DNA from: Methanothrix harundinacea 6Ac
Lineage (GTDB): Archaea > Halobacteriota > Methanosarcinia > Methanotrichales > Methanotrichaceae
Length of the DNA stretch: 64,000 nt
Direction: 5' to 3'
Assembly (NCBI RefSeq): GCF_000235565.1
Contig: NC_017527.1
Location: 682,001-746,000, forward strand
The translations under genes and the position numbers were made by a program. Shown here in pieces: positions 7,161 to 39,079 of the stretch. Position 1 is the stretch's first letter, and each line of letters starts with the position of its first letter. The notes beneath the pieces were generated by a model. It searched no databases and had not been told where the DNA came from. It saw only the letters and a program-made list of their open reading frames with translations.

Positions 7161-10100
7161 TTGGAAAGTTTTATCAGCGTTTGGACCAATCGTACAAGAC
7201 TGCCGAGCTGGCGCTGCAGGAGGGGAAATGAACTGAAAAATAAATGTTCGGATCTGGGACCAAATGCCATCGTCGAAGGGCCCATCTTCCCCGAGCCGAT
7301 CGAGATAAGCATGACGGTGTCCATGGGGGAGTCCGTCAAGATAATCGGCAAAGGGCTTAAGACCGGCCGGTTTTATGATCCGGTTCTGTCTTCAGAACAG
7401 CTGAAGACTCTCAGAAATATCGGATCAAATATGGAATCCTTCGACGGGGACGCCTTTAACTTCCGTTTGGGAATCGAGGCTATGAGGCTGGGAATGGCTC
7501 ACGAGTACGACCCCTTCTTCAGCCTCTCAATCGCCCGGGTGGACCCTCTTCCCCATCAGCTGGAGGCTGTGTATGACTACTTCCTCAAGCTCCCTCGCAT
7601 CCGTTTCCTTCTAGCAGACGATCCTGGAGCTGGAAAGACCATAATGGCGGGGCTCCTTGTCAAGGAGCTGAAGATGAGGGGCCTGATAATGCGAATTCTG
7701 ATAGTCACCCCTGCAAATCTCACCTTTCAGTGGCAGCGAGAGATGAGGGAGAAGTTCGGGGAGCGGTTCGAGGTGATAAGAGGCGTCGTCTTGAGGGCGA
7801 ACTACGGCACCAATCCCTGGCAGGAGAGGGATCAGGTCATAACATCGATGCCGTGGGTGGCTCGGATCGAGGATGCCAAGGAGAGCCTGCTTCACAGCCA
7901 TTGGGATCTGGTCATCGTTGACGAGGCTCATAAGATGAGTGCTTACTCCTCCGAGAAGAAGACCCTGGCCTATCAGCTTGGCGAGGCGCTCTCGGAGATG
8001 ACGGATCACTACCTCCTCATGACCGCAACCCCCCATAAAGGCGATCCCCAGAACTTCTGTCTCTTCCTCCGGCTTTTGGATGAGGATGTTTACGGTGACG
8101 TGAAGAGCCTGGAGGAGGCGATGCGTCGTCACGAGGCGCCCTTCTATCTTCGGAGGGTCAAGGAGGCGATGGTGACCTTCCCAGATCCGGATACTGGGGA
8201 CGCAAAGACCCTCTTCACCAAGCGGGACGTTCGGACGATCGAGTTCGAGATAGATAGCGATGAGCTGGATTTCTACGATGAGCTTACGAGGTACGTGGAA
8301 GACCAATCGATCAAGGCCTATGAGGATGATTCGGCACGGGGCCGGGCGCTCGGGTTCACCATGGCGATGCTCCAGCGTCGGTTTGCCTCGAGCATTTACG
8401 CCGTGAGGAGGAGCCTTGAACGGATGCGCGATCGTCGAGAGAAGATCTTGGCAGATCCCGATGGCTATCGGAGAAAGCTCGTCCTCAAAGGGGTTCCCGA
8501 GAACTTCGACGACCTCCCCGAAGAGGAGCAGCAGAGGATCATCGAAGATCAGGAAGAAGCGGTAGCATCCCTCAACCCTGCCGATCTGAAAGCGGAGATT
8601 AAGGAGCTCGCCCGGCTTATCGATCAGGCCCGAGCATTGGAGGAGAGGGAGATCGAGACGAAGCTCGCAAAGCTGAGGGAGGTCATCACCCAGGAGGGGA
8701 TCTTCTCGGACCCGAAGATGAAGCTATTGATCTTCACCGAGCACAAGGACACCCTCGACTATCTGACAGAGAAGCTGAGGGGCTGGGGTCTTTCAATAAC
8801 CCAGATTCATGGCGGGATGAAGGCGGGGAGCAGGGACGAGCCCGGAACTCGCCTCTCTGCGGAGCGAGAGTTTAGGGAAGATTGCCAGGTGATGGTAGCG
8901 ACTGAGGCTGCTGGCGAGGGGATCAACCTTCAGTACTGCTGGTTCATGATAAACTACGACATCCCCTGGAACCCGGTCCGGCTGGAGCAGAGGATGGGCA
9001 GGATTCATCGCTACGGTCAGGAGAAGGACTGTCTGATCTTCAACTTCGTGGCCATCAATACCCGGGAGGGGCGGGTTCTTCAGAAGCTCTTTGAGAGGAT
9101 AGAGAAGATCGAGATGGATCTCGATCCGGATCATACCGGCAAGGTCTTCAACGTTCTCGGAGACGTTCTGCCCTCAAACCAGCTGGAGAAGATGTTGAGG
9201 GAGATGTACGCTCACAACTTGACCGAGGACGTGATCAAAAGCAGGATCGTGGAGCAGGTGGATTCTGCCCATCTTAAGAAGATCACCGACTCGACTCTGG
9301 AGAACTCCCTTGCCAAGAAGGAGCTGAACCTTTCGGCCATCGTAGGCAAGAGGGTGGAAGCGAAGGAAAGAAGGCTAGTTCCGGAGGTCGTCGAGGACTT
9401 CTTCGTTCAGGCGGCACCTCTGGCGGGGATGAGGCCGAAGGAATCGAGAGCCGATCGCCACATTTACCAGATCGGCAAGGTTCCCCGATCGTTAAGGGCG
9501 GTTGGGGACCGCCTGGAGTCGGAGTCGAGGTGTGGCCCTCTTGGAAGCGAGTACAAATGGATCGTCTTCGACAAGGACCTTTTACAGGAGGACGCAACCC
9601 TCGAATGGGTGACGCCCGGCCATCCCTTATTCGAGGGCGTGAGGATGCACACTCTCGATTGTGTAGAGGATGATCTCAGGCGGGGCGCAGCCTTCTTCGA
9701 TCTGCATCGAGAGAAGCCCGCAAGGTTGGACGTTTACTCGGCTGCTCTAAAAGACGGGCTGGGCGCCACCCTGAATCGAAGACTCTTCGTCGTCGAGACG
9801 GGTCTGGACGGCCAGATGTCGGTACGTCAGCCGACCCTTTTTCTGGATCTGGTGCCGGCGCCTCCGGGTACGAAGGTTCCAAAGGTTCCTGGTGGGGAGG
9901 AGCTTCCCGGCAGGGAGGAGGTGGAAAGATTCCTTTACGAGGTGGCGCTACAGCCCTTCAGGGAGGAGGTGAGCTCCCAACGAAGGAAGGAGGTGGAGAC
10001 TGTATTGCACCATGCTGAGATCAGCCTTAACACCATCATAGATCGGGTGCAGTGTCAGTTTGCGGATCTTCACCTGAAGAGAGAGTCCGGCTCGAAAGAG

Positions 10101-10679
10101 CCGGGACTGGAGGGAAGGATCAAGCTCTTCGACGATCGGCTAGCCGATCTGAACAACCGCCTTGAAAGGAGGAGGGCTGAGCTGGAGAAGGAGCTTCACT
10201 GCACCATCTCTGATCTTCACCGGCTGGGATCTGCCTGGGTGATCCCCCATCCAGAGAGGAACGATCCCGGAATCGCGCCGATGGTCCGTGATGAAGAGAT
10301 CGAACGGATCGCCGTCGACGCGGTGATCGCCCGCGAGGAGGCCCGGGGCTGGAAGGTTGAGAGCGTCGAGAGCGAGAATCGAGGATTTGATCTGATCTCC
10401 CGGAGGCTCCATCTTGAAGATCCGAAGACTGCGTTGGAGGTCCGGTTCATCGAGGTGAAGGGGAGGGCGACGGTAGGCGAGGTCGCCCTGACCGAGAACG
10501 AGTACAAGACCGCCGCCCGTTTGAAGGAGGACTACTGGCTCTATGCCGTCTTCAACTGCGCCAGCGAGCCCGAGGTGAAGCCGATCCGAGATCCCGCCAG
10601 GCTCGGCTGGTCGCCGGTGGTGAGGGTGGAGCATTACAGACTGGGGGCGGAGGAGATCCTGGGGGAAAGAGATGATTGA
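7161..10679 (+). CDS. SNF2-type DEAD/DEAH helicase with C-terminal DUF3883-like domain (defence)
   Basis: Large ATP-dependent translocase, the first gene of the putative defence operon. Order: N-terminal module (VEGPIFPEPIEI, about 40-60), helicase domain with Walker A DDPGAGKT near 152, DEAH box VDEAHKMS and TATPHKGDP, a long coiled insertion (about 430-500), a helicase C domain with ATEAAGEGINLQ and QRMGRIHRYGQ near 610, and a C-terminal DUF3883-like domain (about 1040-1165) with GFDLISRR and RFIEVKGRA, resembling a PD-(D/E)XK core. The start is uncertain: 7161 is the longest frame (TTG), but a TATA box near 7142-7150 would place transcription start downstream of it. The best ribosome site, AGGAGGGG at 7218-7225, serves an ATG at 7228 in the wrong frame. 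Its stop overlaps the next gene by 8 bases. Confidence 0.85.
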   Translation: MESFISVWTNRTRLPSWRCRRGNELKNKCSDLGPNAIVEGPIFPEPIEISMTVSMGESVKIIGKGLKTGRFYDPVLSSEQLKTLRNIGSNMESFDGDAFNFRLGIEAMRLGMAHEYDPFFSLSIARVDPLPHQLEAVYDYFLKLPRIRFLLADDPGAGKTIMAGLLVKELKMRGLIMRILIVTPANLTFQWQREMREKFGERFEVIRGVVLRANYGTNPWQERDQVITSMPWVARIEDAKESLLHSHWDLVIVDEAHKMSAYSSEKKTLAYQLGEALSEMTDHYLLMTATPHKGDPQNFCLFLRLLDEDVYGDVKSLEEAMRRHEAPFYLRRVKEAMVTFPDPDTGDAKTLFTKRDVRTIEFEIDSDELDFYDELTRYVEDQSIKAYEDDSARGRALGFTMAMLQRRFASSIYAVRRSLERMRDRREKILADPDGYRRKLVLKGVPENFDDLPEEEQQRIIEDQEEAVASLNPADLKAEIKELARLIDQARALEEREIETKLAKLREVITQEGIFSDPKMKLLIFTEHKDTLDYLTEKLRGWGLSITQIHGGMKAGSRDEPGTRLSAEREFREDCQVMVATEAAGEGINLQYCWFMINYDIPWNPVRLEQRMGRIHRYGQEKDCLIFNFVAINTREGRVLQKLFERIEKIEMDLDPDHTGKVFNVLGDVLPSNQLEKMLREMYAHNLTEDVIKSRIVEQVDSAHLKKITDSTLENSLAKKELNLSAIVGKRVEAKERRLVPEVVEDFFVQAAPLAGMRPKESRADRHIYQIGKVPRSLRAVGDRLESESRCGPLGSEYKWIVFDKDLLQEDATLEWVTPGHPLFEGVRMHTLDCVEDDLRRGAAFFDLHREKPARLDVYSAALKDGLGATLNRRLFVVETGLDGQMSVRQPTLFLDLVPAPPGTKVPKVPGGEELPGREEVERFLYEVALQPFREEVSSQRRKEVETVLHHAEISLNTIIDRVQCQFADLHLKRESGSKEPGLEGRIKLFDDRLADLNNRLERRRAELEKELHCTISDLHRLGSAWVIPHPERNDPGIAPMVRDEEIERIAVDAVIAREEARGWKVESVESENRGFDLISRRLHLEDPKTALEVRFIEVKGRATVGEVALTENEYKTAARLKEDYWLYAVFNCASEPEVKPIRDPARLGWSPVVRVEHYRLGAEEILGERDD

Positions 10680-12369
10680 TCACCATCGACTTCTGGAGCT
10701 GATAGCGTCGGGGGAAGCTCTCGATATCGAGTTCAAGTCGGATCGTCGAAGGATCTCAGATCGTGAGATCTACGAGGAGGTGGTCGCCATGGCAAACACC
10801 AGAGGAGGTGTTCTCCTGATAGGGGTGGAGGACGATGGCCGGGTTACGGGCGCGTCCCCAAGACACGGAAAGACGACCGATCCACTGAAACTACAGTCTG
10901 CCATATTCAATAATACGGTCCCCAATATCAACACGCGGATCAGCTTGGTCGCGGATGCGGATCCAGAGGGAGAAGTTCTGGCCATCGAGGTGGACTCTTA
11001 TCCAGAGCCCTGTGCCACAACGGAAGGAAAAGCTCTTCACAGGACTATTAAGGCAGATGGTAAACCTCAGACAGTCCCATTCTATCCTCGAGATCAACGA
11101 TCACGCCGGGTTGACCTTGGTCTCCTCGATTTCTCGTCTCAGGTGATGGAGGAGGTCTCTTTTGACGGCCTGGACCCCTTAGAGTTTGAACGACTGAGAC
11201 AGACGGTATCGAGGCTTCGTGGCGATCGAAATTTGTTGGAACTCTCTGACGAAGAAATAGCCAAAGCACTCAGGCTCGTCGAAACCAAAGATGGACAGCT
11301 CATCCCCAACGTGGCAGGTCTCTTGATACTCGGCCGAGAGGATGTCCTCATGAATTATCTGCCCACAAATGAAGTCCACTTCCAGGTTCTCGATGCTCAG
11401 GGCAACGTTAAGGTCAACGATGCCGTTCGTTGGCCTCTACTCCGTCTAATACAAGAAATTGAGGCGAGATTTGTTGTTCGTAACCAGGAGAATGAGACTG
11501 CAGTGGGATTTTTCCGGGTGCCGGTTCCTGATTACTCTCTTGAGGGCTTCCGTGAAGCGTTCAACAATGCAATCCTTCACCGGGATTATACCCGCTTGGA
11601 CGCGGTTTATGTCCAATGGCATCACGATCACATTTTAATGACCAACCCGGGAGGGTTCCCGGCGGGCATTACGGTGGAAAACATTCTCGTCCACGAACCG
11701 AAGCCCAGAAACTCGAGGTTGGCAGAGGCCTTCAAAAGGATTGGCATAATCGAGCAGACCGGAAGAGGTGTGGATAAAATCTATATGGGACAGCTGCGGT
11801 ATGGGCGGCCTGCACCAGATTATACCAGAAGCGATGCCGATAGCGTACGAATCGTCCTTCATGGTGGAAAGGCATCTCTGGAGTTTTCTGCGTTTGTCTA
11901 CGAGCAAGAGAAACACGGTTCCCGATTGAGCTTAGATGAACTTATGATCCTCAATGCCTTGTTCTTCGATCGCAGAATTGACTCTGAGGCTGCAGGTCGT
12001 CTCATCCAGAAAGGCGCGACGGAGGCGAGACGGACTTTAGAGCATCTCCATGAAATAGGGCTGGTTGAGGGTAAAGGAGAGGCACGAGGGCGAGTATACC
12101 ATTTGAGTGCGGATATGTACCGCAGACTTGGCCAGCCGGAGAGCTATGTGCGGACCCACGGAATCGCTCCCATAAGGCAAGAAGCGATGGTTATGGAGTA
12201 CGTCCAGGCCCACGGTCGGATAGAACGAAAGCATGTTATGGAACTGTGTGGGCTGACGAGTCCACAGGCTGGTCGCATCTTGAAGAAGATGGTCCAGAAT
12301 GGGAAGCTCAAGCGACGAGGAACCCCGCCCAGGTGGACGTATTATGTCATAGCAGAGGAGGAATCTTGA
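10672..12369 (+). CDS. AlbA_2/Schlafen-type ATP-binding protein with winged helix (probable defence regulator)
   Basis: The 565 residues begin with an AlbA_2 (Schlafen-like) domain: LDIEFKSDRR near residue 18 and ANTRGGVLLIGVEDDG near 45. A middle region with EAFNNAILHRDY and NPGGFPAGIT, then GIIEQTGRGVDKIY, fits the HATPase_c_4 domain of these proteins. The C-terminal 150 residues look like winged helices. Such proteins are common beside defence genes as regulators or accessory factors. It overlaps the helicase gene and ends 138 bases before the methylase. Codon use is less GC-rich than in the neighbours, suggesting separate acquisition. Confidence 0.82.
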   Translation: MIDHHRLLELIASGEALDIEFKSDRRRISDREIYEEVVAMANTRGGVLLIGVEDDGRVTGASPRHGKTTDPLKLQSAIFNNTVPNINTRISLVADADPEGEVLAIEVDSYPEPCATTEGKALHRTIKADGKPQTVPFYPRDQRSRRVDLGLLDFSSQVMEEVSFDGLDPLEFERLRQTVSRLRGDRNLLELSDEEIAKALRLVETKDGQLIPNVAGLLILGREDVLMNYLPTNEVHFQVLDAQGNVKVNDAVRWPLLRLIQEIEARFVVRNQENETAVGFFRVPVPDYSLEGFREAFNNAILHRDYTRLDAVYVQWHHDHILMTNPGGFPAGITVENILVHEPKPRNSRLAEAFKRIGIIEQTGRGVDKIYMGQLRYGRPAPDYTRSDADSVRIVLHGGKASLEFSAFVYEQEKHGSRLSLDELMILNALFFDRRIDSEAAGRLIQKGATEARRTLEHLHEIGLVEGKGEARGRVYHLSADMYRRLGQPESYVRTHGIAPIRQEAMVMEYVQAHGRIERKHVMELCGLTSPQAGRILKKMVQNGKLKRRGTPPRWTYYVIAEEES

Positions 12370-12370
12370 T

Positions 12371-12479
12371 CGTCCTATCGTCCTATGATGCAGCTATAGA
12401 CGTTCTTTCGACATGTTCGATATCTCTATCGACGCGTCGATAGAACTTGCGTTAGAAATGCGTTAGAATTGCGTCAGAG
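12371..12479 (+). promoter_or_regulatory. Repeat-rich control region before the methylase gene
   Basis: Between the regulator gene and the DUF1156 methylase lie three repeat structures. There is a tandem CGTCCTAT pair (12371-12386). A perfect 20-base palindrome (12425-12444) has the half-site TCTATCGACG. Three head-to-tail 11-base units follow (12447-12457 TTGCGTTAGAA, 12458-12468 ATGCGTTAGAA, 12469-12479 TTGCGTCAGAG). This looks like a multi-site operator. A role for the winged-helix neighbour as its binder is inference. Confidence 0.6.
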
Positions 12480-12507
12480 ATTCACGAGTTCAGAAGGTAA
12501 CCCAAAG

Positions 12508-15500
12508 ATGACTCATACCGCGACCCATCACCCCAAGCGGCTGATCGAGGTGGACCTGCCGATAAAGAGGATCAGCGAGCACGCTCGGCGGGAGAAGTCG
12601 ATCCGGCACGGCCACATATCGACGCTCCACATCTGGTGGGCGAGGCGCCCCCTCGCCGCCTGCAGGGCCGTGGTCTGCGCCTCCCTCTGGCCCGACCCCG
12701 CCGATCCCCTCTGCCCGCCGGAGTTTCGAGAGGCCGCCGCATCGGCGATGCGCCGGTTTGACGAGGTCAGCCGCGACCCCCTCGGCCAGGACCCCCGAGA
12801 CCTCGACGACCCCGACGAGCTCCAGAGGGCGCTTCTCGACTTCATCGCCGAGTTCGCCAACTGGGACCGCTCGACCGACCAGGCCTACCTCGACGCCGCC
12901 CGGACCCTCACCCAATCCGCCCACGAGGCGCTGGGGGGCCTTTCCGGCACCCGGCCCCTGGTCGTCGATCCCTTCGCCGGGGGCGGCGCGATCCCCCTGG
13001 AGGCGCTGCGGGTCGGGGCCGACGCCTTCGCCTCGGACCTGAACCCCGTCGCCGTCCTCCTGAACAAGGTGGTCCTGGAGTACATCCCCCGGTACGGCCA
13101 GGCCCTGGCCGATGAGGTCCGCCGGTGGGGCGGCTGGATCAAGGAGGAGGCCGAGCGCGAGCTGGCCGAGTTCTACCCCACCGACCCCGACGGCGCCACA
13201 CCAATCGCCTACCTCTGGGCGAGGACGATCACCTGCGAGGGGCCGGGCTGCGGCGCCGAGGTCCCCCTCATCCGCTCCCTCTGGCTCGCGAAGAAGCAGA
13301 ACCGCTCCGTCGCCCTTCGGATGGTCCCGAGGATGGACGAGCGGAAGGTCGAGTTTGAGATCCTGGAGGGTGTGAGGGCGAGGGAGGTCGGCGAGGGGAC
13401 GGTCCGCCGGGGCTCGGCGACCTGCCCGGTCTGCGGCTACACAACGCCGGTCGCCTCGGTCCGAAGGCAGCTGAAGGCCCGCCGGGGCGGCGCCGCCGAC
13501 GCCCGACTCTTCGCCGTGGTGACGACGAGGCCCGGCGAGCGGGGGAGGTTCTATCGGCTCCCGACGAGGCAGGACCTCGCGGCGGCAAAGAAGGCGGCCG
13601 AGGAGCTTGAGCGGAGGAAGGCGGAGCACGTGGGACCTCTCAGCCTGGTGCCGGATGAGCCAACCCCCATGGGCGGCGGAAGCGGCGCGGGCCGGGCCTT
13701 CTCCCAACGAAATTACGGCATGGACCTCTTCGAGGATCTCTTCACGCCTCGTCAGGCTCTGGCGCTGACGACCCTGGCGCGGCTGGTCCGAGAGGCCGGG
13801 GAGAAGGTGGCCGAAGAGCAGGAGAACGGGCTGGCGGCGGCGGTGCAGACGTGTCTGTCGTTAGCGATTGATAGATCGGCAGATAAATTATCGTCTCTAG
13901 CTCGCTGGGATACTTCAAGGGAAAATCCTCAAGGAACATTTAGTCGTCAAGCTTTGCAAATAGTTTGGGATTTTGATGAAGTCAATCCACTTTCAGGTTC
14001 TGGTGGAGATTGGAATACAGCACTAACATGGATTTCGCTGGTTTCAGAGAGCGTATCATCATTTTTTCTTGATTTCCAAGGGCATGCAGAATCGAAATCT
14101 GCCAATAAAAATGATCTTCCTGACGAATTCGCCCAAATCCTCTTCACCGATCCGCCTTATTACGACGCCGTGCCCTACGCCGACCTCTCAGATTTCTTCT
14201 ACGTCTGGCTGAAAAGGACTTTGCCGAAGCCGCTCCGCTCTCAGTTTTCTGATCCTCTGACCCCTAAGGGCGACGAGATCATCGTGGACGAGGTGAAGGG
14301 AAAAGATAGACCCTACTTCGAGTCCACCATGACCCAGGCCCTGGCCGAGGGCCGACGGGTTCTTGCACCCGAGGGGATCGGGGTCGTCGTCTTCGCCAAT
14401 AAGACCACCACGGGCTGGGAGGCGATGCTCCAGGCGCTGCTGGACGCTGGCTGGGTCATCACCGCCTCCTGGCCCATCGACACCGAGATGGGGACCAGGC
14501 TTAGGGCCATGAACTCCGCCGCCCTCGCCTCCTCCGTCCACCTCGTCTGCCGCCCGCGCGAGAATCCGGACGGGACCCTGAAGGAGGAGGTCGGCGACTG
14601 GCGGGACGTACTTGCAGAATTGCCGCAAAAGATCCACGGCTGGATGCCCCGCCTCGCCGAGGAGGGGGTCGTCGGCGCCGACGCCATCTTCTCCTGCATC
14701 GGCCCCGCCCTGGAGGTCTTCTCCCGGTACTCGCGGGTCGAAAAGGCGAGCGGCGAGGCCGTCGCCCTTGGAGAGTATCTGGTGGAGGTCTGGGCGGCGG
14801 TATCGAGGGAGGCGCTGAATATGATCTTCGAGGGGGCGGACGCTACCGGGTTTGAGGAGGATGCGAGGCTGACGGCGATGTGGCTCTGGACGTTGTCCAC
14901 AGGCGCGAACGGAAACGGCAACGGAAACAACGGCGGCTTAGGGGGCGAAGAAGACGAGGCCGGTGGAGAGGTCGGGGGCCGGTCCGGAAGGGCCGTCCGG
15001 GGCGAGTATTCTTTGGAGTACGACGCCGCCCGGAAGATCGCCCAGGGGATCGGAGCCCACATGGAGACCCTCCCAGACCTCGTCGAGATCAAAGGCGGCT
15101 CGGCACGGCTCTTATCCGTCGCCGAGAGGTCGGATCGCCTCTTCGGAAAAGGAACAGGAAAAGGCGCAAGCCCGGCCGAAAGGGCCGGGCCGAGGCGAAC
15201 CGGGAAGAAGAGGCAGGCCCAGGCCAGCTTCGAGGAGGGCGAGATGGTGGTGCCCCTGGGCGAGGACGGCTTCGGGGCCGGAGGCGGGGGCAGCGGCGGG
15301 ACGGCTGCTCAGCCCGTTCTCGCCGAGACCGTCCTGGACAGGGTCCACCAGGCGATGCTCCTCTTCGCCGAGGGGAGGAGCGAAGCCCTCCGGTCTTTCC
15401 TCGTGGAGGAGGTGGGAGGCGACCAGAGGTTCTGGAGGCTCGCCCAGGCCCTGGTGGCCCTCTACCCGGCATCGACCGAGGAGAGGCGGTGGGTCGAAGG

Positions 15501-15534
15501 CGTCCTGGCGCGGAAGAAGGGGCTTGGTCTCTGA
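12508..15534 (+). CDS. DUF1156-family DNA methyltransferase (defence)
   Basis: Probable DNA amino-methyltransferase that modifies host DNA. It has 1008 residues. The N-terminal DUF1156 region opens LIEVDLPIKRISEHARREKSIRHGHI and HIWWARRPLAACRA. The AdoMet-binding motif is DPFAGGGAIPLEALRVGADAFASDLNP (about 153-180), cysteine pairs around 250-315 look like a zinc site, and the catalytic motif is DPPYYDAVPYADLSDFFYVW (about 548). The ATG at 12508 precedes the conserved block directly; the upstream TTG at 12469 falls in the repeats. Codons 449-541 are strikingly AT-rich compared with the flanks. The stop overlaps the next start (TGATG). Confidence 0.9.
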   Translation: MTHTATHHPKRLIEVDLPIKRISEHARREKSIRHGHISTLHIWWARRPLAACRAVVCASLWPDPADPLCPPEFREAAASAMRRFDEVSRDPLGQDPRDLDDPDELQRALLDFIAEFANWDRSTDQAYLDAARTLTQSAHEALGGLSGTRPLVVDPFAGGGAIPLEALRVGADAFASDLNPVAVLLNKVVLEYIPRYGQALADEVRRWGGWIKEEAERELAEFYPTDPDGATPIAYLWARTITCEGPGCGAEVPLIRSLWLAKKQNRSVALRMVPRMDERKVEFEILEGVRAREVGEGTVRRGSATCPVCGYTTPVASVRRQLKARRGGAADARLFAVVTTRPGERGRFYRLPTRQDLAAAKKAAEELERRKAEHVGPLSLVPDEPTPMGGGSGAGRAFSQRNYGMDLFEDLFTPRQALALTTLARLVREAGEKVAEEQENGLAAAVQTCLSLAIDRSADKLSSLARWDTSRENPQGTFSRQALQIVWDFDEVNPLSGSGGDWNTALTWISLVSESVSSFFLDFQGHAESKSANKNDLPDEFAQILFTDPPYYDAVPYADLSDFFYVWLKRTLPKPLRSQFSDPLTPKGDEIIVDEVKGKDRPYFESTMTQALAEGRRVLAPEGIGVVVFANKTTTGWEAMLQALLDAGWVITASWPIDTEMGTRLRAMNSAALASSVHLVCRPRENPDGTLKEEVGDWRDVLAELPQKIHGWMPRLAEEGVVGADAIFSCIGPALEVFSRYSRVEKASGEAVALGEYLVEVWAAVSREALNMIFEGADATGFEEDARLTAMWLWTLSTGANGNGNGNNGGLGGEEDEAGGEVGGRSGRAVRGEYSLEYDAARKIAQGIGAHMETLPDLVEIKGGSARLLSVAERSDRLFGKGTGKGASPAERAGPRRTGKKRQAQASFEEGEMVVPLGEDGFGAGGGGSGGTAAQPVLAETVLDRVHQAMLLFAEGRSEALRSFLVEEVGGDQRFWRLAQALVALYPASTEERRWVEGVLARKKGLGL

Positions 15535-16151
15535 TGGAAGCCGCCAAAATCGCCCGCCGCTGGCAGGAGGCCTTCCTTCAGGCGCTTCGGCCCCTTGAGA
15601 ACTCCCGGCCCCTCAAGGAGGCCGCAGCCTCTGGAAATCTGGGCGGGTGGACCTCCGCCCTCACGAGTCTCGTGGTCAAAAGCTGCGAATCCCTGGGCTG
15701 GCAGGCCGCCGCCCTCGGCCATCCCTGTCGGATTCTGCCCGTATCCAGGGAGGAGTACCTCTCCCTGGACGTGGTGGCCTTCGCCCCCGCCGCCCCCTCG
15801 AGCGGCGGCGGGGATCGAAAAGGAGGGAGATGGCCCACCCCCCTGGCGGCGATGGAGCTTGAGAACAGCAGATCCGACGACGCCGTCGCCTACTCCCTCT
15901 GGAAGACCCTCTGGACGAGAGCCGACCTCCGGGTGGTCTTCTGCTACCGGCAGACCGACTCTGAGGGCGGATCCCTCATGAAGATCCTCCAGGAAGAGGT
16001 CGTCGGGTCGATGAGCATCGAGGAGAGGGTCGCCCTCGGAGGCGAGACCCTGGTGGCCGTCGGCATAAAAGAGAGGCTTGCGGCCTTTCCCTACGGCTAC
16101 TTCAAGTGGTGGCGGCTGGACAGCCAATCGGGAAATTTTTGGCTATTCTAG
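15534..16151 (+). CDS. 205-residue protein of the methylase operon, possible PD-(D/E)XK nuclease
   Basis: I do not recognise a named family. The ATG at 15534 overlaps the methylase stop, so the two are translated together. Residues 40-60 form a helix. The strand LDVVAF holds Asp79; then PLAAMELENS holds Glu108 and Glu110, followed by a helix with Lys124 and the strand DLRVVFCYR (131-139). This hydrophobic Asp - Glu-x-Glu - helix - strand pattern resembles the core of restriction-type nucleases, so it may be the cutting subunit. It ends in TAG at 16149 and overlaps the convergent hicA remnant by 4 bases. Confidence 0.55.
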   Translation: MEAAKIARRWQEAFLQALRPLENSRPLKEAAASGNLGGWTSALTSLVVKSCESLGWQAAALGHPCRILPVSREEYLSLDVVAFAPAAPSSGGGDRKGGRWPTPLAAMELENSRSDDAVAYSLWKTLWTRADLRVVFCYRQTDSEGGSLMKILQEEVVGSMSIEERVALGGETLVAVGIKERLAAFPYGYFKWWRLDSQSGNFWLF

Positions 16152-16371
16152 AAGAGCTCCTCCAGCTCGTCTTTTCCGATGCCCGCCTGCTTCAGAATGG
16201 CGAGGGCGGTTCCCGTTGGCAGACTCTTTTTGTGGAAAGGGACGACGACTCTCCTCTTCGTCTCAGGGTTGAGGCAAATCCGATGGCTTCCTCGGGTTCT
16301 GTCGAGGACAAACCCCTCTTTTCCAGCACTTTGATGATCCTCGGAGGGGTGAGGTCGGACACTTTAGGCAT
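16148..16371 (-). pseudogene. hicA: hicA toxin gene with a one-base deletion
   Basis: From ATG 16371 the frame reads MPKVSDLTPPRIIKVLEKRG. The base pattern GGGG-TTT (plus-strand 16310-16316) then lacks one base, and the protein resumes in the next frame as VLDRTRGSHRICLNPETKRR, VVVPFHKKSLPTGTALAIL and KQAGIGKDELEELF, ending in TAG. Together they make a normal 74-residue HicA double-stranded-RNA-binding toxin with the catalytic His in GSHR. As read, the frameshifted protein lacks that His. It overlaps hicB by 8 bases, the usual coupling. It could be a real loss of toxin or a sequencing error. Confidence 0.85.
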
Positions 16372-16603
16372 GAGCCTCTACAGAGAGGGCGTACTCCAGG
16401 GCGTCCTCCTCTGTCGGTATCTCTTCTCCGTCCTCTCTCAGGCTCTCCAGATACAGCTCGATCGCCTCTATTGCCATCTTCACCGCCTCTTCGATGGTAT
16501 CTCCATAGGTGACGCAACCAGGAAGCGAGGGGACGGTCACGGTGTATCCGCCTTCTGGCTCTCTTTTGAGCAGGACCCTGTAGGTCAATGTGCTCATGGT
16601 CAT
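16364..16603 (-). CDS. hicB: HicB-family antitoxin
   Basis: Antitoxin of the HicAB RNA-targeting toxin system, 79 residues. It has the partial RNase-H-like HicB fold: YRVLLKREPEGGYTVTVPSLPGCVTYGDTIEEAVKMAIEAIELYL, then an acidic tail. Here hicB precedes hicA. The pair sits in reverse orientation between the 205-residue gene and the DUF499 gene, apparently inserted in the defence operon. A 12-base palindrome just before the start is a likely autoregulatory site. Confidence 0.9.
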   Translation of the reverse strand: MTMSTLTYRVLLKREPEGGYTVTVPSLPGCVTYGDTIEEAVKMAIEAIELYLESLREDGEEIPTEEDALEYALSVEAHA

Positions 16604-16606
16604 TGC

Positions 16607-16618
16607 TAAACGCGTTTA
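16607..16618 (-). promoter_or_regulatory. Palindromic operator candidate for hicBA
   Basis: TAAACGCGTTTA is a perfect 12-base palindrome 4 bases upstream of the hicB start. It lies between the start and a TATA-like TAATATCAT (about 16619-16628 on the minus strand). A repressor bound here would block initiation, as expected for an antitoxin-regulated promoter. Confidence 0.5.
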
Positions 16619-16772
16619 TGATATTAGAAACTCACTGAGGATCGACGCTCCACGAGAACCAGGGCTCACCGAATCGCCGGACCCTTTCAGATTTTTACTT
16701 ACGGTGAATTTAAGTCCTGAAGATCTGATAAGAAACAGGAGACCTTTGGAATCAGATGGAAGGAGGGAGAAG

Positions 16773-19736
16773 ATGGCGCTCAAACCCTGGTACAAAGTAG
16801 TGACGCCGAGAGAAGATCTGAGATTGGCAAAACCCCTGGACGCCTCGGAGTTTGCAGTCCACCTGGACAAGGTCCGGGACGAAAGCGCCGCCGAAGATTA
16901 TCGAAACCCGGAGAAGTTCTTCGAGCGGACATACCTCACAATAAATCTGGCCTCCATGGCCGCCGAGGTCGTCCGGCGCCTCTCCGGCGAGAAGACCGAG
17001 GCCTCTGCCGTCTTCAACCTGAACACCCAGTTCGGCGGCGGAAAGACCCACGCCCTCACCCTCCTCTACCACCTCGCCAAAAACGGTCCCAAGGCCGAGA
17101 GCTGGCCCGGCGCGAATAAGATCCTGGCCAAATCGGGCGTTCGGGGGATCCCCGAGGCCGTCACCGCCGTCTTCGTGGGAACTGAGTTCGACTCCATCAA
17201 GGGGCGCGGCGGCGACGACGGAACGCCCCTTCGAAAGACGCCCTGGGGTGAGATCGCCTTCCAGCTCGGCGGCGAAGAGGCCTTCGCCACCGTGGCCGAG
17301 CACGACCGGCTGATGAGAGCCCCGGCAGGAGACGTCATCCGCCAATTCCTGCCCAAAGGTCGCCCCTGCCTGATCCTCATGGACGAGCTGATGAACTACG
17401 TCAGCAGAAACCGCAAGACTGACCTCCCATCCCAGCTCTATAACTTCATCCAAAACCTGTCGGAGACAGTCCGGGGCGAAGACCGGATGGTCCTGGTCGT
17501 GTCCGTCCCCGCCTCGGCGACGGAGATGAATCCCGAGGACCACTCCGACTACGACCGGCTCAAAAAGCTCCTCGACCGGCTCAGCAAGGCCGTCATCCTC
17601 TCGACGGAGACCGAGATCTCCGAGATAATCAGACGCCGCCTCTTTGAGTTCGACTCCAAATCCCTGGACCTGAACGGCAAGATCGTCCTCCCCGACGAGG
17701 CGAGAGCCGTCTGTGAAGAGTACGCCCGATGGGTGCTCGACCACCGCCAGCAGGTACCAAGCTGGTTTCCCGTCGACAACGCAAGAGCGGCCTTCGAGGC
17801 CGCCTACCCCTTCCACCCCATGGTCTACTCGGTCTTCGAGAGAAAATGGCAGACCCTTCCTCGGTTCCAGCGGACCCGGGGCGTCCTCCGTCTCCTCGCC
17901 CTCTGGATCTCCAGAGCCTACAACGACGGCTACAGGGGCGCCCACAGCGACCCCATAATCGGCCTTGGAACCGCTCCTCTCGATGACCCCTTCTTCCGGG
18001 CGGCAGCTCTGGAGCAGCTCGGCGAAGAGCGCCTGGAGGTTCCCATCACCACAGACATCTGTGGTGCCGGCGACTCTCACTCCATCCGCCTGGACGCGGA
18101 GGCGGTCGATTCTATCAAAAAAGCCAGGCTCCACCAGAAGGTGGCGACGTCCATCTTCTTCGAGTCCAACGGCGGCAGAACCTCTGGCACAGACGCCACC
18201 ATCCCTGAAGTACGCCTTGACGTGGCCGAACCAGGCCTGGACATCGGAAACGTGGAGACCGTTCTGAGCGCCCTCGAAGCCACCTGTTACTACCTCAGGG
18301 CTGACGGGAGCCGCTACCACTTCAGTCTGAAAGTGGGGCTTCCCAAGCTCATCGCAGATCGCAGGGCGGGAATCTCTCAGCCAAGGATCAGAGAGCGGAT
18401 CATGGCCGAGATATCCCAGGTCTTCGCAAAAGGCCCGGAATTGGATCGGGTCTTCTTCCCTCAGAAGAGCAACGATATCCCGGACCGAGCCTCTCTGACT
18501 CTGATCGTCCTTCCCCCAGATAGATCGATGCAAGACCGAGAAGCCGTTCTCCGTTCAATCGATTCGATGACCGCAGAGCACGGAACCTCGGGAAGGACCT
18601 TCAAGAGCGCCCTGATATGGTCGGCGGCCGAGAGCGATTCTCATCTCGATCACGTCGCACGCGATCTTTTGGCCCTGGAAGAGATACAAGACGAGGAGTT
18701 GAAGCTCCAGCTCGATGACTCTCAGAAGCTACAGCTGAAGGATAACCTCAGGAGATCTGAGCGAGACCTGAGGGAGGCCGTCTGGCGGACCTACCGGTAT
18801 GTGGCCCTCCTGGGAAGAGAAAATGTGGAGATCATAGACCTGGGGCTGGTCCACTCCAGCGCCGCAAGCTCCATGGTGGACCTGATAATCTCGAAGCTGA
18901 AGCGAGACGACCTGGTGGCGGATTCTGCAAGTCCCGGCTTCCTCGTCCGTAATTGGCCTCCTGCCTTCAAGGAGTGGAGCACAAAGGCGGTGCGAGACGC
19001 CTTCTTCGCCTCGCCCATCTTTCCGAGGCTCTCAAATCCAAATTCGATCAAGGAGACAATCGCCCGAGGGGTCAGCGGCGGAGTCCTCGGATACGTCGGC
19101 AAGATCGGCAGCAAGTACGATCCCTTCCTCTACAAGGAGGGAATTTCCGTGGCGGAGGTGGAGATCTCCGAGGAGATGTTCATCATCACGGCTGAGACGG
19201 CGGAGGATTACATAAGAGACCATTCAGATCCACCGGTTCTGACATCGATCGAGATCTCTCCTCGAACCTTCCAGCTCAAGCCCGGGGATGTCCAGTCCTT
19301 CGTGGCCAGAGGCTTTGATCAGCGAGGCAATGATTATCCCTTGGATCAGGTCGCCTGGACCGCCACCGGCGGCGTCATCGGAGATAGGGGCAACTTTCAG
19401 GCTGGTGATGATGACGGTCGCTTCACAGTGACGGTGAGCAGCAAAGGGGTCAGCTCCTCGATAACAATCACGATCGCTGCTGACGGAGGAAGCAAAGTCA
19501 TCGACGAAGGCGGAGATGACGGATCTGTCAAGACCGCTTCATGGAAGGGAGAGGTCCCCCCTCAAAAATGGATGAACATATACAGCAAGGTCCTCTCCGG
19601 ATTCGCTCGGGAGGGCAGCCTGAGGCTGACCCTCAATGTAGAGATCTCATCTGAAAAGGGCATACCCAAAGATAGGATCGAGGAGATGAAAGTCGCATTG
19701 AGGGAGCTTGGCCTGAACGACGAGATAACAATCTAA
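16773..19736 (+). CDS. DUF499-family AAA ATPase with C-terminal Ig-like domain (defence)
   Basis: The 987-residue ATPase partner of DUF1156 methylases. The start is the ATG at 16773, 6 bases after AGGAGG (16761-16766), giving the family N terminus MALKPWYKVVTPREDL; the longer open frame from 16590 crosses the hicB promoter. Walker A is QFGGGKTH (about 86-93) and Walker B is CLILMDEL (about 204). Residues about 820-905 (TSIEISPRTFQLKPGD to VSSSITITI) look like a bacterial Ig-like (Big) domain, a fold normally found on surface proteins, which is odd in a cytoplasmic ATPase. The role in defence is inferred from family and context. Confidence 0.87.
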   Translation: MALKPWYKVVTPREDLRLAKPLDASEFAVHLDKVRDESAAEDYRNPEKFFERTYLTINLASMAAEVVRRLSGEKTEASAVFNLNTQFGGGKTHALTLLYHLAKNGPKAESWPGANKILAKSGVRGIPEAVTAVFVGTEFDSIKGRGGDDGTPLRKTPWGEIAFQLGGEEAFATVAEHDRLMRAPAGDVIRQFLPKGRPCLILMDELMNYVSRNRKTDLPSQLYNFIQNLSETVRGEDRMVLVVSVPASATEMNPEDHSDYDRLKKLLDRLSKAVILSTETEISEIIRRRLFEFDSKSLDLNGKIVLPDEARAVCEEYARWVLDHRQQVPSWFPVDNARAAFEAAYPFHPMVYSVFERKWQTLPRFQRTRGVLRLLALWISRAYNDGYRGAHSDPIIGLGTAPLDDPFFRAAALEQLGEERLEVPITTDICGAGDSHSIRLDAEAVDSIKKARLHQKVATSIFFESNGGRTSGTDATIPEVRLDVAEPGLDIGNVETVLSALEATCYYLRADGSRYHFSLKVGLPKLIADRRAGISQPRIRERIMAEISQVFAKGPELDRVFFPQKSNDIPDRASLTLIVLPPDRSMQDREAVLRSIDSMTAEHGTSGRTFKSALIWSAAESDSHLDHVARDLLALEEIQDEELKLQLDDSQKLQLKDNLRRSERDLREAVWRTYRYVALLGRENVEIIDLGLVHSSAASSMVDLIISKLKRDDLVADSASPGFLVRNWPPAFKEWSTKAVRDAFFASPIFPRLSNPNSIKETIARGVSGGVLGYVGKIGSKYDPFLYKEGISVAEVEISEEMFIITAETAEDYIRDHSDPPVLTSIEISPRTFQLKPGDVQSFVARGFDQRGNDYPLDQVAWTATGGVIGDRGNFQAGDDDGRFTVTVSSKGVSSSITITIAADGGSKVIDEGGDDGSVKTASWKGEVPPQKWMNIYSKVLSGFAREGSLRLTLNVEISSEKGIPKDRIEEMKVALRELGLNDEITI

Positions 19737-19760: not shown

Positions 19761-19976
19761 ATGACCTCAATTGCGTTCGAAAAGCAGTACGTAGTAAATG
19801 AAAAGGGCGACCGAATAGGCGTCCTCCTCAGCCTGGAGGATTACAAAAAGCTCCTCGACGAGCTGGAGGAGCTGGACTCCCTTCGAGCCCGCGATGCTGC
19901 CAAAGCATCCGGCGAAGAGGCGATCCCTTTCGAGGAGGCCATCGACGATATCGAACGTGAGAGAGATCGTCTATAG
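19761..19976 (+). CDS. RelB/Phd-type antitoxin, orphan
   Basis: Short 71-residue protein with the pattern of prevent-host-death/RelB antitoxins: an N-terminal strand-rich part (QYVVNEKGDRIGVLLSLEDYKKLLDELEEL), then a helical acidic tail ending IERERDRL. It starts 25 bases after the DUF499 stop, so it may ride on the defence operon. A toxin frame begins inside its end but breaks after 18 codons. Confidence 0.75.
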   Translation: MTSIAFEKQYVVNEKGDRIGVLLSLEDYKKLLDELEELDSLRARDAAKASGEEAIPFEEAIDDIERERDRL

Positions 19977-20147: not shown

Positions 20148-20327
20148 ATGAAGCTCAAGGTGACCCTCGAAGAGGCCGAGGAAGGGGGGTACATCGTCAG
20201 CTGTCCGGCACTGCCGGGCTGCCATTCTCAGGGGGATACCGCCGTGGAGGCCCTGGAAAATATCAGGGAGGCGATAGAGGGCTGCCTTGAATCCTTCTCG
20301 GAAAATTTGTTCATCTCGAATAGATGA
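20148..20327 (+). CDS. Small HicB-like protein without partner
   Basis: A 59-residue frame (ATG 20148, TGA 20325) reads KVTLEEAEEGGYIVSCPALPGCHSQGD then TAVEALENIREAIEGCLES, the HicB/UPF0150 N-terminal fold. It is shorter than most HicB proteins, and no HicA frame precedes or follows. It ends 31 bases before the convergent RDD gene. Confidence 0.7.
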   Translation: MKLKVTLEEAEEGGYIVSCPALPGCHSQGDTAVEALENIREAIEGCLESFSENLFISNR

Positions 20328-37690: not shown

Positions 37691-39079
37691 TCAGCCGACG
37701 AGATCGTAGTGTCTGTACCCGTCGCCGCCGATCCGGAGGAGGGCGAACTCCCCCGCCGGGGGGATGACGCTCTCCTGCCGCGTGCCATCGTGGAGGAGCT
37801 GGTAATCCTTAAGGCCGATCTCCACCCGATCCTCGAGCCGTTTTAGGATGCGGTCCCTGGCCAGGGACCGGACGCCCTCTCCGACCACCCCAGAGAAGAA
37901 GGCAGCAGAGCAGCCGCTCCCGTAGGAGCCGAGGCCGATCCGCGCTCCCGGGGTGAGGAGGTCCTGCGCCAGGAGGCTCGCCAGGCCCAGGTAGATCGAG
38001 CCGGTGTAGATGTTTCCGACGGCCGAGGAGATGAGGGTCGAGGGTTTGACCTTCCTCTCGTACGCCTCCAGAAACTTCGCCGACTTCGAGAACCTCCTCT
38101 GGTAATCGGCCGACTCCTTAGCCCCCTCTTCGCCTCCGACCTCCTCGGCCGCCGGCTCGGCCCCGATCTCCTCCTCTACCTCCTGCCACCGGGGAAGGGG
38201 CCGCCACTCCCGGCGGAAGAACGAGGCGGCGGCGTACTCCGCCATCCGGGGGTAGGGGATGTGGAATATGATCTGGCGGAGGTGGTCTGATAAGCACCCG
38301 CCTTCTCCTATGCGGATCATCCCCCGGGAAAGGGCTCTCCTCTGAAAGGAGGAGAAGGCTCCGTCCATCGCCGCCAGGTAGCACTGGTTGCTGTACTTCC
38401 CGTTGACGACGGCGCACCTCATCCCGACGGGCCGGAAGAAGTCGTTCTCGTCTCGAGTATAGACCCCCATGACGGGGTCGAGGGCGAGGATCCTCGGGTT
38501 TCTTTTGATCAAAAGGGCGACGGAGCCCGCCCCCTGGGTGTACTCGCCGGGGGAGCCGAGCTCGTAACGGGCAACGTCCGTCGCCACCACGATCCCCACC
38601 CTCCCCCGCCTCCTCCCCGGCCCGTCGGCGTCTTCGCCTCCTCCATCGTCTCCGGCCTTCAGCCAGCAGGCGACGCTCTCCAGGGCGTGAGTGGCGCCGA
38701 TGCAGGCGGCCTTGAACTCGACGGTGGAGCACTCCGAGAAGGTGCCGGGGCCGTAGACCCGCTCCAGCATCCCGATGACGTAGGTACCGATCGCCTTCGC
38801 CTCATCGACCCCCGACTCGGTGCCGATGTATATCTTTCCCACCTCGGCGGGGCGGAGGTCGTTCTTCTCCATAAGCTCCAGGGTCGAGGCGGCGGCGAGG
38901 GTGGCGGCGTCCTCGTGGGCGTCGGGGACGGCCATCTTCTCGACCCCGATACCCCGGGCAAGCTTAGCGGGCTCGATCCCCCTCGCCCTCGCAAACTCGC
39001 CAGTGGTCGATATGAAGAGCTTTGGGAAGGCAGCGGCGATGTCGTCGATCCCGACGGCAGAGTTGGGCGAATCTATCAT
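37691..39079 (-). CDS. mvaS: Hydroxymethylglutaryl-CoA synthase
   Basis: Condenses acetyl-CoA and acetoacetyl-CoA in the mevalonate pathway to archaeal lipids. The ATG at 39079 is chosen: GAGGAGATCACC precedes it and the conserved SAVGIDDIAAAFPK follows. The nucleophile is Cys126 in EFKAACIGATHALES, with acid/base Glu in GTESGVDEAK (about 88-96) and the C-terminal GSYGSGCSAAFFSG. At 462 residues it is longer than typical archaeal HMGS (about 350); the extra is two linkers, a Gly/Asp/Arg stretch near 150 and an acidic Glu/Ala stretch near 310-335. Confidence 0.9.
   Translation of the reverse strand: MIDSPNSAVGIDDIAAAFPKLFISTTGEFARARGIEPAKLARGIGVEKMAVPDAHEDAATLAAASTLELMEKNDLRPAEVGKIYIGTESGVDEAKAIGTYVIGMLERVYGPGTFSECSTVEFKAACIGATHALESVACWLKAGDDGGGEDADGPGRRRGRVGIVVATDVARYELGSPGEYTQGAGSVALLIKRNPRILALDPVMGVYTRDENDFFRPVGMRCAVVNGKYSNQCYLAAMDGAFSSFQRRALSRGMIRIGEGGCLSDHLRQIIFHIPYPRMAEYAAASFFRREWRPLPRWQEVEEEIGAEPAAEEVGGEEGAKESADYQRRFSKSAKFLEAYERKVKPSTLISSAVGNIYTGSIYLGLASLLAQDLLTPGARIGLGSYGSGCSAAFFSGVVGEGVRSLARDRILKRLEDRVEIGLKDYQLLHDGTRQESVIPPAGEFALLRIGGDGYRHYDLVG

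Follow-up and report, generated by a model that had tools for sequence, protein, structure and literature searches.

Introduction

Iterons that lie directly downstream of the gene of their own binding protein are known from plasmid replication regions, in repA-incA of P1 and repA-oriR of R1, and have been linked to cis action or dosage control. Tandem direct repeats spaced by about one helical turn also make up the centromeres of type II and type III plasmid partition systems, ParR-parC and TubR-tubC, in which a small DNA-binding domain, which in TubR is a winged helix, reads them cooperatively; the repeats are sometimes arranged in two blocks (PMC5016525). These centromeres lie upstream of the operon and work together with a partition NTPase (PMC5016525). 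In BREX-type islands, 11-bp inverted repeats (R-boxes) are bound by the DNA-binding regulator BrxR, a WYL protein, and are located between promoter and start codon (PMC9122601).

Here, we describe a cluster of repeats in a 64,000-nucleotide stretch of the Methanothrix harundinacea 6Ac genome (the window), situated between a gene with an AlbA_2 domain and the DNA methylase gene of an Hma-type defence locus. Like parC and tubC, it contains direct repeats in helical phase, with units of 11 bp in the window and periods of 11, 20–22 and 31–32 bp in the family of the upstream gene. Unlike them, the family arrays are positioned 3′ of the gene, and their predicted reader is fused to Schlafen and GHKL domains. 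No lag-11 repeat signal was detected 5′ of family genes, and no partner NTPase of the partition type is encoded in the window operon. The cluster resembles the BrxR boxes in being a set of repeats in a BREX-type island with a predicted DNA-binding regulator as its reader. In contrast to the BrxR boxes, the sites come after the gene and take the form of direct repeats or of palindromes without a gap, and the AlbA_2 protein had no Pfam match to a WYL domain. It differs from the P1 and R1 iterons in its chromosomal defence context, in which no replication function or origin was seen. The nearest described arrangements, ParR-parC/TubR-tubC and the BrxR boxes, thus involve other protein families and are located upstream of operons or start codons. 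A literature search, with one preprint on bacterial Schlafens outside its reach, yielded no description of 3′ arrays in this family, and the 3′ repeat arrays of Schlafen/GHKL/winged-helix genes appear to be undescribed.

The Hma locus and its AlbA_2 gene

The gene order in the window is hmaA-AlbA_2-hmaB-orfX-hmaC. The gene hmaA (7161–10679, + strand, start codon uncertain) encodes an SNF2-type helicase with a NOV C-terminal domain (PADLOC HmaA, 5e-197; Pfam Helicase_C, SNF2-rel_dom and NOV_C), hmaB (12508–15534, +) a DUF1156 DNA methylase (PADLOC HmaB, 1.8e-130; Pfam DUF1156) and hmaC (16590–19736, +, start codon uncertain) a DUF499 AAA+ ATPase (PADLOC HmaC, 3.5e-117; Pfam DUF499). The three genes are on the same strand and are predicted to form one operon, with the gene content of the Hma / Type-1 BR defence system. 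The ATG at 12508 is the likely start of hmaB, and AAGGT at 12494–12498 (+) its likely ribosome-binding site; AAGGTGA occupies the same place in a second M. harundinacea locus, L076. A coding extension of hmaB from TTG 12469 was rejected since the upstream frame was not conserved in relatives.

Directly upstream of the cluster, the Schlafen-type AlbA_2 gene (10672–12369, +) encodes a protein with the SLFN_AlbA_2 (PF04326), HATPase_c_4 (PF13749) and C-terminal winged-helix domains that define the family, as determined with Pfam, an AF2 model and Foldseek. The model contained two C-terminal winged helices with a pLDDT of 73–87 across most of the C-terminus; the underlying alignment was shallow, and only the terminal domains of the model were therefore trusted. 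The C-terminal winged helix at residues about 500–562 (12169–12357, +), of subtype LCxLxxxQ and with matches to HTH_24 and MarR_2, is the predicted reader of the repeats. Foldseek matched the model to 3lmm (DIP2311), the N-domains of SLFN13 and MarR-type folds. The best solved relative, 3LMM (DIP2311 of Corynebacterium diphtheriae; E 7.8e-27), is to our knowledge uncharacterised, and we know of no DNA site for it. No relatives of the AlbA_2 protein were found in viral contigs.

Hma-type loci correspond to the Type-1 DUF499-centred BREX-related system of PMC12839542. Frequent predicted backup RNase effectors of such loci are Schlafen proteins whose C-terminus carries a mini histidine kinase and a winged helix, and the domain order of this accessory is identical to that of the window AlbA_2 protein (PMC12839542). 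A keyword search of the same paper returned no cognate repeats behind the accessory gene (PMC12839542). The original prediction had labelled the protein a regulator; its predicted DNA binding was supported by comparison of homologues, as detailed below, and the label is incomplete in that PMC12839542 counts proteins of this kind among the predicted backup RNase effectors.

Two further features of related genes were observed. Many PF13749 genes (L209–L298) had a very strong 12-bp period (z = 23) in the coding region about 180–300 bp before the stop codon. The period stems from 4-residue repeats, e.g. TEQVTEQV, in the stretch that links the ATPase domain to the winged helix, and is possibly an in-frame counterpart of the 3′ iterons. 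Shorter AlbA_2/HATPase_c_4 genes lacking the winged helix (L306, L313, L314 and L322) had a ParA-like ATPase gene downstream of them and no obvious array.

The repeat cluster

The cluster (12369–12480) is composed of a tandem pair of 8 bp, a 20-bp palindrome and three units of 11 bp, the same three repeat systems that had originally been predicted in front of the methylase. The palindrome TCTATCGACGCGTCGATAGA (12425–12444, no strand; core TATNNACGCGTNNATA) was perfect, as claimed, and is a predicted dimer site. An additional direct copy of its half-site, TTCGATA (12416–12422, +), overlaps a 38-bp block that is kept in L076. The 11-bp iterons TGCGTTAGAAA, TGCGTTAGAAT and TGCGTCAGAGA (12448–12480, +) start at 12448, 12459 and 12470; TGCGTTAGAA is identical in the first two units and the third, TGCGTCAGAGA, is degenerate. 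The distance of 28 bases given in the original prediction between the end of these units and the methylase was confirmed for the ATG at 12508. The 8-bp pair, two copies of ATCGTCCT (12369–12384, +), overlaps the stop codon of the AlbA_2 gene. With a score of only 9 at lag 8 it was weak by itself, and it was absent from the closest relative, L076; it may represent degenerate CTATCG half-sites.

After shuffling, 0.15 palindromes with 10-bp arms are expected per 64-kb window, and when the intergenic region was shuffled 5000 times, such a palindrome arose in 2 of the shuffles. None of 5000 intergenic shuffles reached the tandem score of the cluster, which was matched by 0.36% of equal-sized window segments. 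Chance was excluded for the palindrome and the 11-bp units. The palindrome occurred once in its own 2.57-Mb genome, even when 3 mismatches were allowed. The window contained one other perfect 20-bp palindrome, CGGTCCCTGGCCAGGGACCG, at 37851–37870. An integron attC-like site was considered because GCGTTAG resembles the attC core, and was rejected as no YYYAAC partner was found by eye.

Arrays at the 3′ end of AlbA_2 family genes

Homologues of the AlbA_2 gene with 46–65% identity carried repeats exactly at their 3′ end. In L204–L206 and L208, the clusters followed right after the AlbA_2 stop codon with no methylase adjoining. The units comprised TTATGAACGCGTTCATAAC and ATTATGAACGCGTTCATAT in L204/L205, four copies of GTTATGGACAT in L206, dyads in L207 and L208, and TATGAGCGCGCACATA in the bacterial Hma locus L103; the window palindrome, TTATCGGACAT and TATGTGATNNN likewise represent family pairs with differing units. 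Since AlbA_2 homologues without hmaB carry equivalent clusters, the comparison assigns the window cluster to the 3′ end of the AlbA_2 gene.

A search for PF13749 in 391 archaeal genomes provided 90 genes; Methanosarcina acetivorans, which served as a control, also has genes of the family. In the 120 bp after the stop codon (77 genes), self-similarity peaked at lag 11 (z = 13.2), with further signals at lag 22 (5.6) and lag 33 (3.9). In the same sample, the lag-11 signal had a z of 1.8 at +200–320 bp and of −2.0 on the 5′ side, the latter value being approximate because this measure begins at the open frame and not at the start codon. Genes with a class B winged helix had direct repeats in 32 of 69 cases, compared with 6 of 69 in the control region, at lags of 11, 20–21 and 31–32, i.e., one, two and three helical turns. 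By these scores, about half of the class B genes had no significant array, and class A genes mostly had none. In a separate Bacteroidota sample, lag 11 was the top among all lags for class B (z = 6.6; control 0.7), and class A showed no signal at this lag (z = 0.3).

Across archaea and bacteria, strong 3′ tandem repeats were found for 37 of 95 family genes versus 9 of 404 other genes (p = 8.6e-22), a contrast that is in truth larger since at least four of the nine control matches were AlbA_2 genes that the filter had not recognised (window, L039, L204 and L205), the others including a shadow frame across the array of the window and an artefact of an N run. The periods in the family were mostly 11 or 20–22 bp. 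Arrays at the 3′ end with a unit sequence particular to each gene appear to be common in the family, in many genes of both archaea and bacteria. Two pairs of 11-bp-spaced sites, about 85–110 bp apart, were observed past the stop codon of L290, L291, L293, L315, L320, L347 and L352, alike in archaea and bacteria. The 3′ region of L298 contained a longer direct repeat with 83-bp spacing.

Site type and winged-helix type

Of six genes ending in NYSIASR...YVPFWA, four (three archaea, one Bacteroidales) had TATGTGAY pairs with 11-bp spacing, versus 0 of 155, those with KNxAxVSR had TTGAT pairs in 3 of 6 cases (including Verrucomicrobia and Bacteroidota) versus 1 of 155, and the window subtype LCx[IL]xxxQ had perfect palindromes in 6 of 9 cases versus 5 of 151. 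The p-values are optimistic, since both the A/B split and these motif groups were drawn up once the archaeal genes had been inspected. The agreement across phyla is the stronger point. The palindrome form TATNNNCGCGNNNATA was shared by the window, L204, L321/L103 and L380, that is, by archaea and at least two bacterial groups, and was present in none of the control regions. In a Mantel test, the similarity of winged helices and sites was significantly but weakly related (r = 0.18, p = 0.005; rho = 0.08 for distant pairs), so the discrete recognition-helix groups are the better evidence. By comparison of the predicted proteins with their putative sites, site type tracks winged-helix type across phyla.

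The sites were also local. In eight whole genomes, all matches to tandem TCGGACATTTATCGGACAT (10/10) were located behind AlbA_2 family genes; the four sites that were checked lay 27–36 bp after the stop codon, one of them behind a gene from outside the earlier sample. An operator of a dispersed regulon was rejected, given the single occurrence of the palindrome in its genome and the restriction of the TCGGACATTTATCGGACAT iteron to family genes in these eight genomes. Of 32 cases, the gene following the array was on the opposite strand in 14 and on the same strand in 16. Since the two orientations are about equally frequent, the arrays do not simply serve the next gene as promoters.

Close relatives of the locus

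The absence of the repeats from all related loci, named in the original prediction as counting against it, was not observed: blocks were kept in L076, L037, L038, L039 and L116. Among named loci, the nearest to that of the window were from Methanocrinis natronophilus and M. harundinacea. In L076 (M. harundinacea 57_489), the hmaA and hmaC proteins are 90% and 92.5% identical to those of the window, and an HD-domain-like gene and another gene replace AlbA_2. This locus retains TCGATAGTCTATCAACGCGTCGATAGAATTTGCGTTA before hmaB, in a 38-bp block with the palindrome and TTGCGTTA (89% identity). Its palindrome has one mismatch to that of the window, and it has one 11-bp unit versus three in the window.

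L037, L038, L039 and L116 have another array, in which two TTTGCGTCAYGRCTCRAA units are spaced by 21 bp. Its iteron block was identical at 46–48 of 48 positions among these loci, compared with 43–57 of 59 in the 59-bp downstream flank. In L037 and L038, the AlbA_2 gene is a C-terminal remnant only and the 48-bp iteron block is still kept; in L117, a 21-bp array lies behind an AlbA_2 remnant. No array was found in L040, where hmaA and hmaB abut, or in L118, which has other cargo. The iterons of L037 and L038 and the palindrome of L076, persisting without an intact AlbA_2 gene, may be relics or may serve hmaB.

A same-genus genome in which no hmaB was detected (G006) has kept a 61-bp piece of a 21-bp iteron array, likely a relic of a lost Hma island. 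This fragment (G006:C48; L153/L151) adjoins HicB-like and RDD-like genes resembling the flanks of the window island. The 17-mer TGCGTTAGAATTGCGTC, exact in several relatives, was dismissed: it falls in coding sequence where two genes meet, and its match is due to chance.

Alternative explanations

The original prediction interpreted the cluster as a switch, that is, an operator/promoter through which the AlbA_2 protein or another factor would set the level of the methylase apart from that of the helicase. Local control of hmaB is conceivable because its start lies 28 bp beyond the array, which is still present in L037, L038 and L076 despite the loss or replacement of AlbA_2. The 38-bp block has been kept in L076 despite the different upstream gene, and the iteron block of L037 and L038, next to a mere AlbA_2 remnant, is as conserved as in intact loci. 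As a general explanation the switch did not hold: clusters of the same kind follow AlbA_2 genes that have no adjoining methylase, the next gene is frequently on the opposite strand, loci devoid of AlbA_2, such as L040 and L118, show no array, and inspection by eye revealed no clear archaeal TATA box. We therefore regard the cluster as unlikely to be an operator of the methylase.

The remaining alternatives have less in their favour. An exchange point for accessory genes between hmaA and hmaB would fit the differing cargo of this gap among relatives and the position of the L076 palindrome at the hmaB-side edge; it is improbable given that arrays lie behind AlbA_2 genes in unrelated contexts, that their unit sequence tracks the winged helix and not the locus, and that no matching copy exists at the other edge of the cargo. 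As they occupy the 3′ UTR of AlbA_2 from the stop codon onwards, the repeats could also work at the RNA level, terminating or attenuating transcription or binding a protein. However, folding was no better than in shuffled sequences (z = −1.3 on the + strand, −0.4 on the − strand) and no Rfam match exceeded the threshold, on which grounds a structured RNA element was rejected; helical-turn phasing and perfect palindromes suit double-stranded DNA, and a role in RNA is likewise improbable. Least probable is neutral slippage, the accumulation of functionless tandem copies at a gene end. Unit number and sequence do vary among relatives, as between the window and L076, but the period is confined to multiples of about 10.5 bp, the 3′ ends of other genes are without such arrays, the same units accompany the same winged helix across phyla, and the iteron block is more conserved than its downstream flank.

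Proposed function of the arrays

We favour, with a probability of roughly 0.7, the explanation that the cluster is a cognate DNA-binding array for the winged helices of the upstream protein and acts in cis. Probably, the cluster consists of binding sites for the gene's own product, as predicted from the comparison of homologues; binding by the AlbA/winged-helix protein, suggested along with the original prediction, gained support from the same comparison. The position, phasing, specificity grouping and locality of the arrays are evident from the compared sequences, whereas we infer binding, cooperative loading and purpose.

The winged helices would read the palindrome and the 11-bp units, and because these are in phase, several subunits could align along the same side of the helix where their own gene ends. 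A nascent protein is released at the end of its gene, which would favour cis capture, as has been argued for some plasmid replication proteins. The AlbA_2 protein might be captured in cis by the array where it is made and kept parked there as a concentration-limited oligomer, thereby controlling its own activity or expression. We propose this parking or cis-control step tentatively; parking or dosage control would be a natural use for a predicted toxic RNase. In the Hma locus, the bound protein may additionally modulate the adjoining hmaB start, and direct control of hmaB by the array is doubtful. It is more speculative that the array is a DNA parking lot onto which newly made toxic protein loads in cis as an inactive oligomer, to be released when infection disturbs the DNA, with the 3′ end as the sensor; we think this rather improbable.

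If binding is confirmed, each member of a large defence-linked family would gain a DNA target that can be read from the genome, and the regulation or activation of the family would become directly testable. The many protein–site pairs, set side by side, would constitute a natural data set for the recognition code of winged helices. Binding would also explain puzzling repeats of BREX-type islands and revise the view that repeats of this kind are part of the gene that follows them.

Variable and conserved parts of the Hma locus

Around hmaC, the window encodes a HicB-like antitoxin (16364–16603, −), a Phd/YefM-RelB-like antitoxin (19761–19976, +) and a second HicB-like gene (20148–20327, +), all with no obvious toxin partners. 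The ORF of 207 aa between hmaB and hmaC (15528–16151) had no Pfam or PADLOC match; its position was kept in many Hma loci (L037–L040, L045, L050, L069, L071 and L076), as an unnamed fourth gene. The hmaB proteins of the window (12508–15534) and L076 (5992–8961) were 93% identical in the first 331 residues and 74% identical overall. As hmaA and hmaC are about 90% identical between these loci, the middle part of hmaB, probably its target-recognition region, has apparently been exchanged. The hmaA–hmaB slot contained AlbA_2 in the window (10672–12369), an HD-domain-like gene and a small gene in L076 (3817–5672), or nothing in L040 (5971–6001), and is, judging by these contents, a cargo site inside the defence operon.
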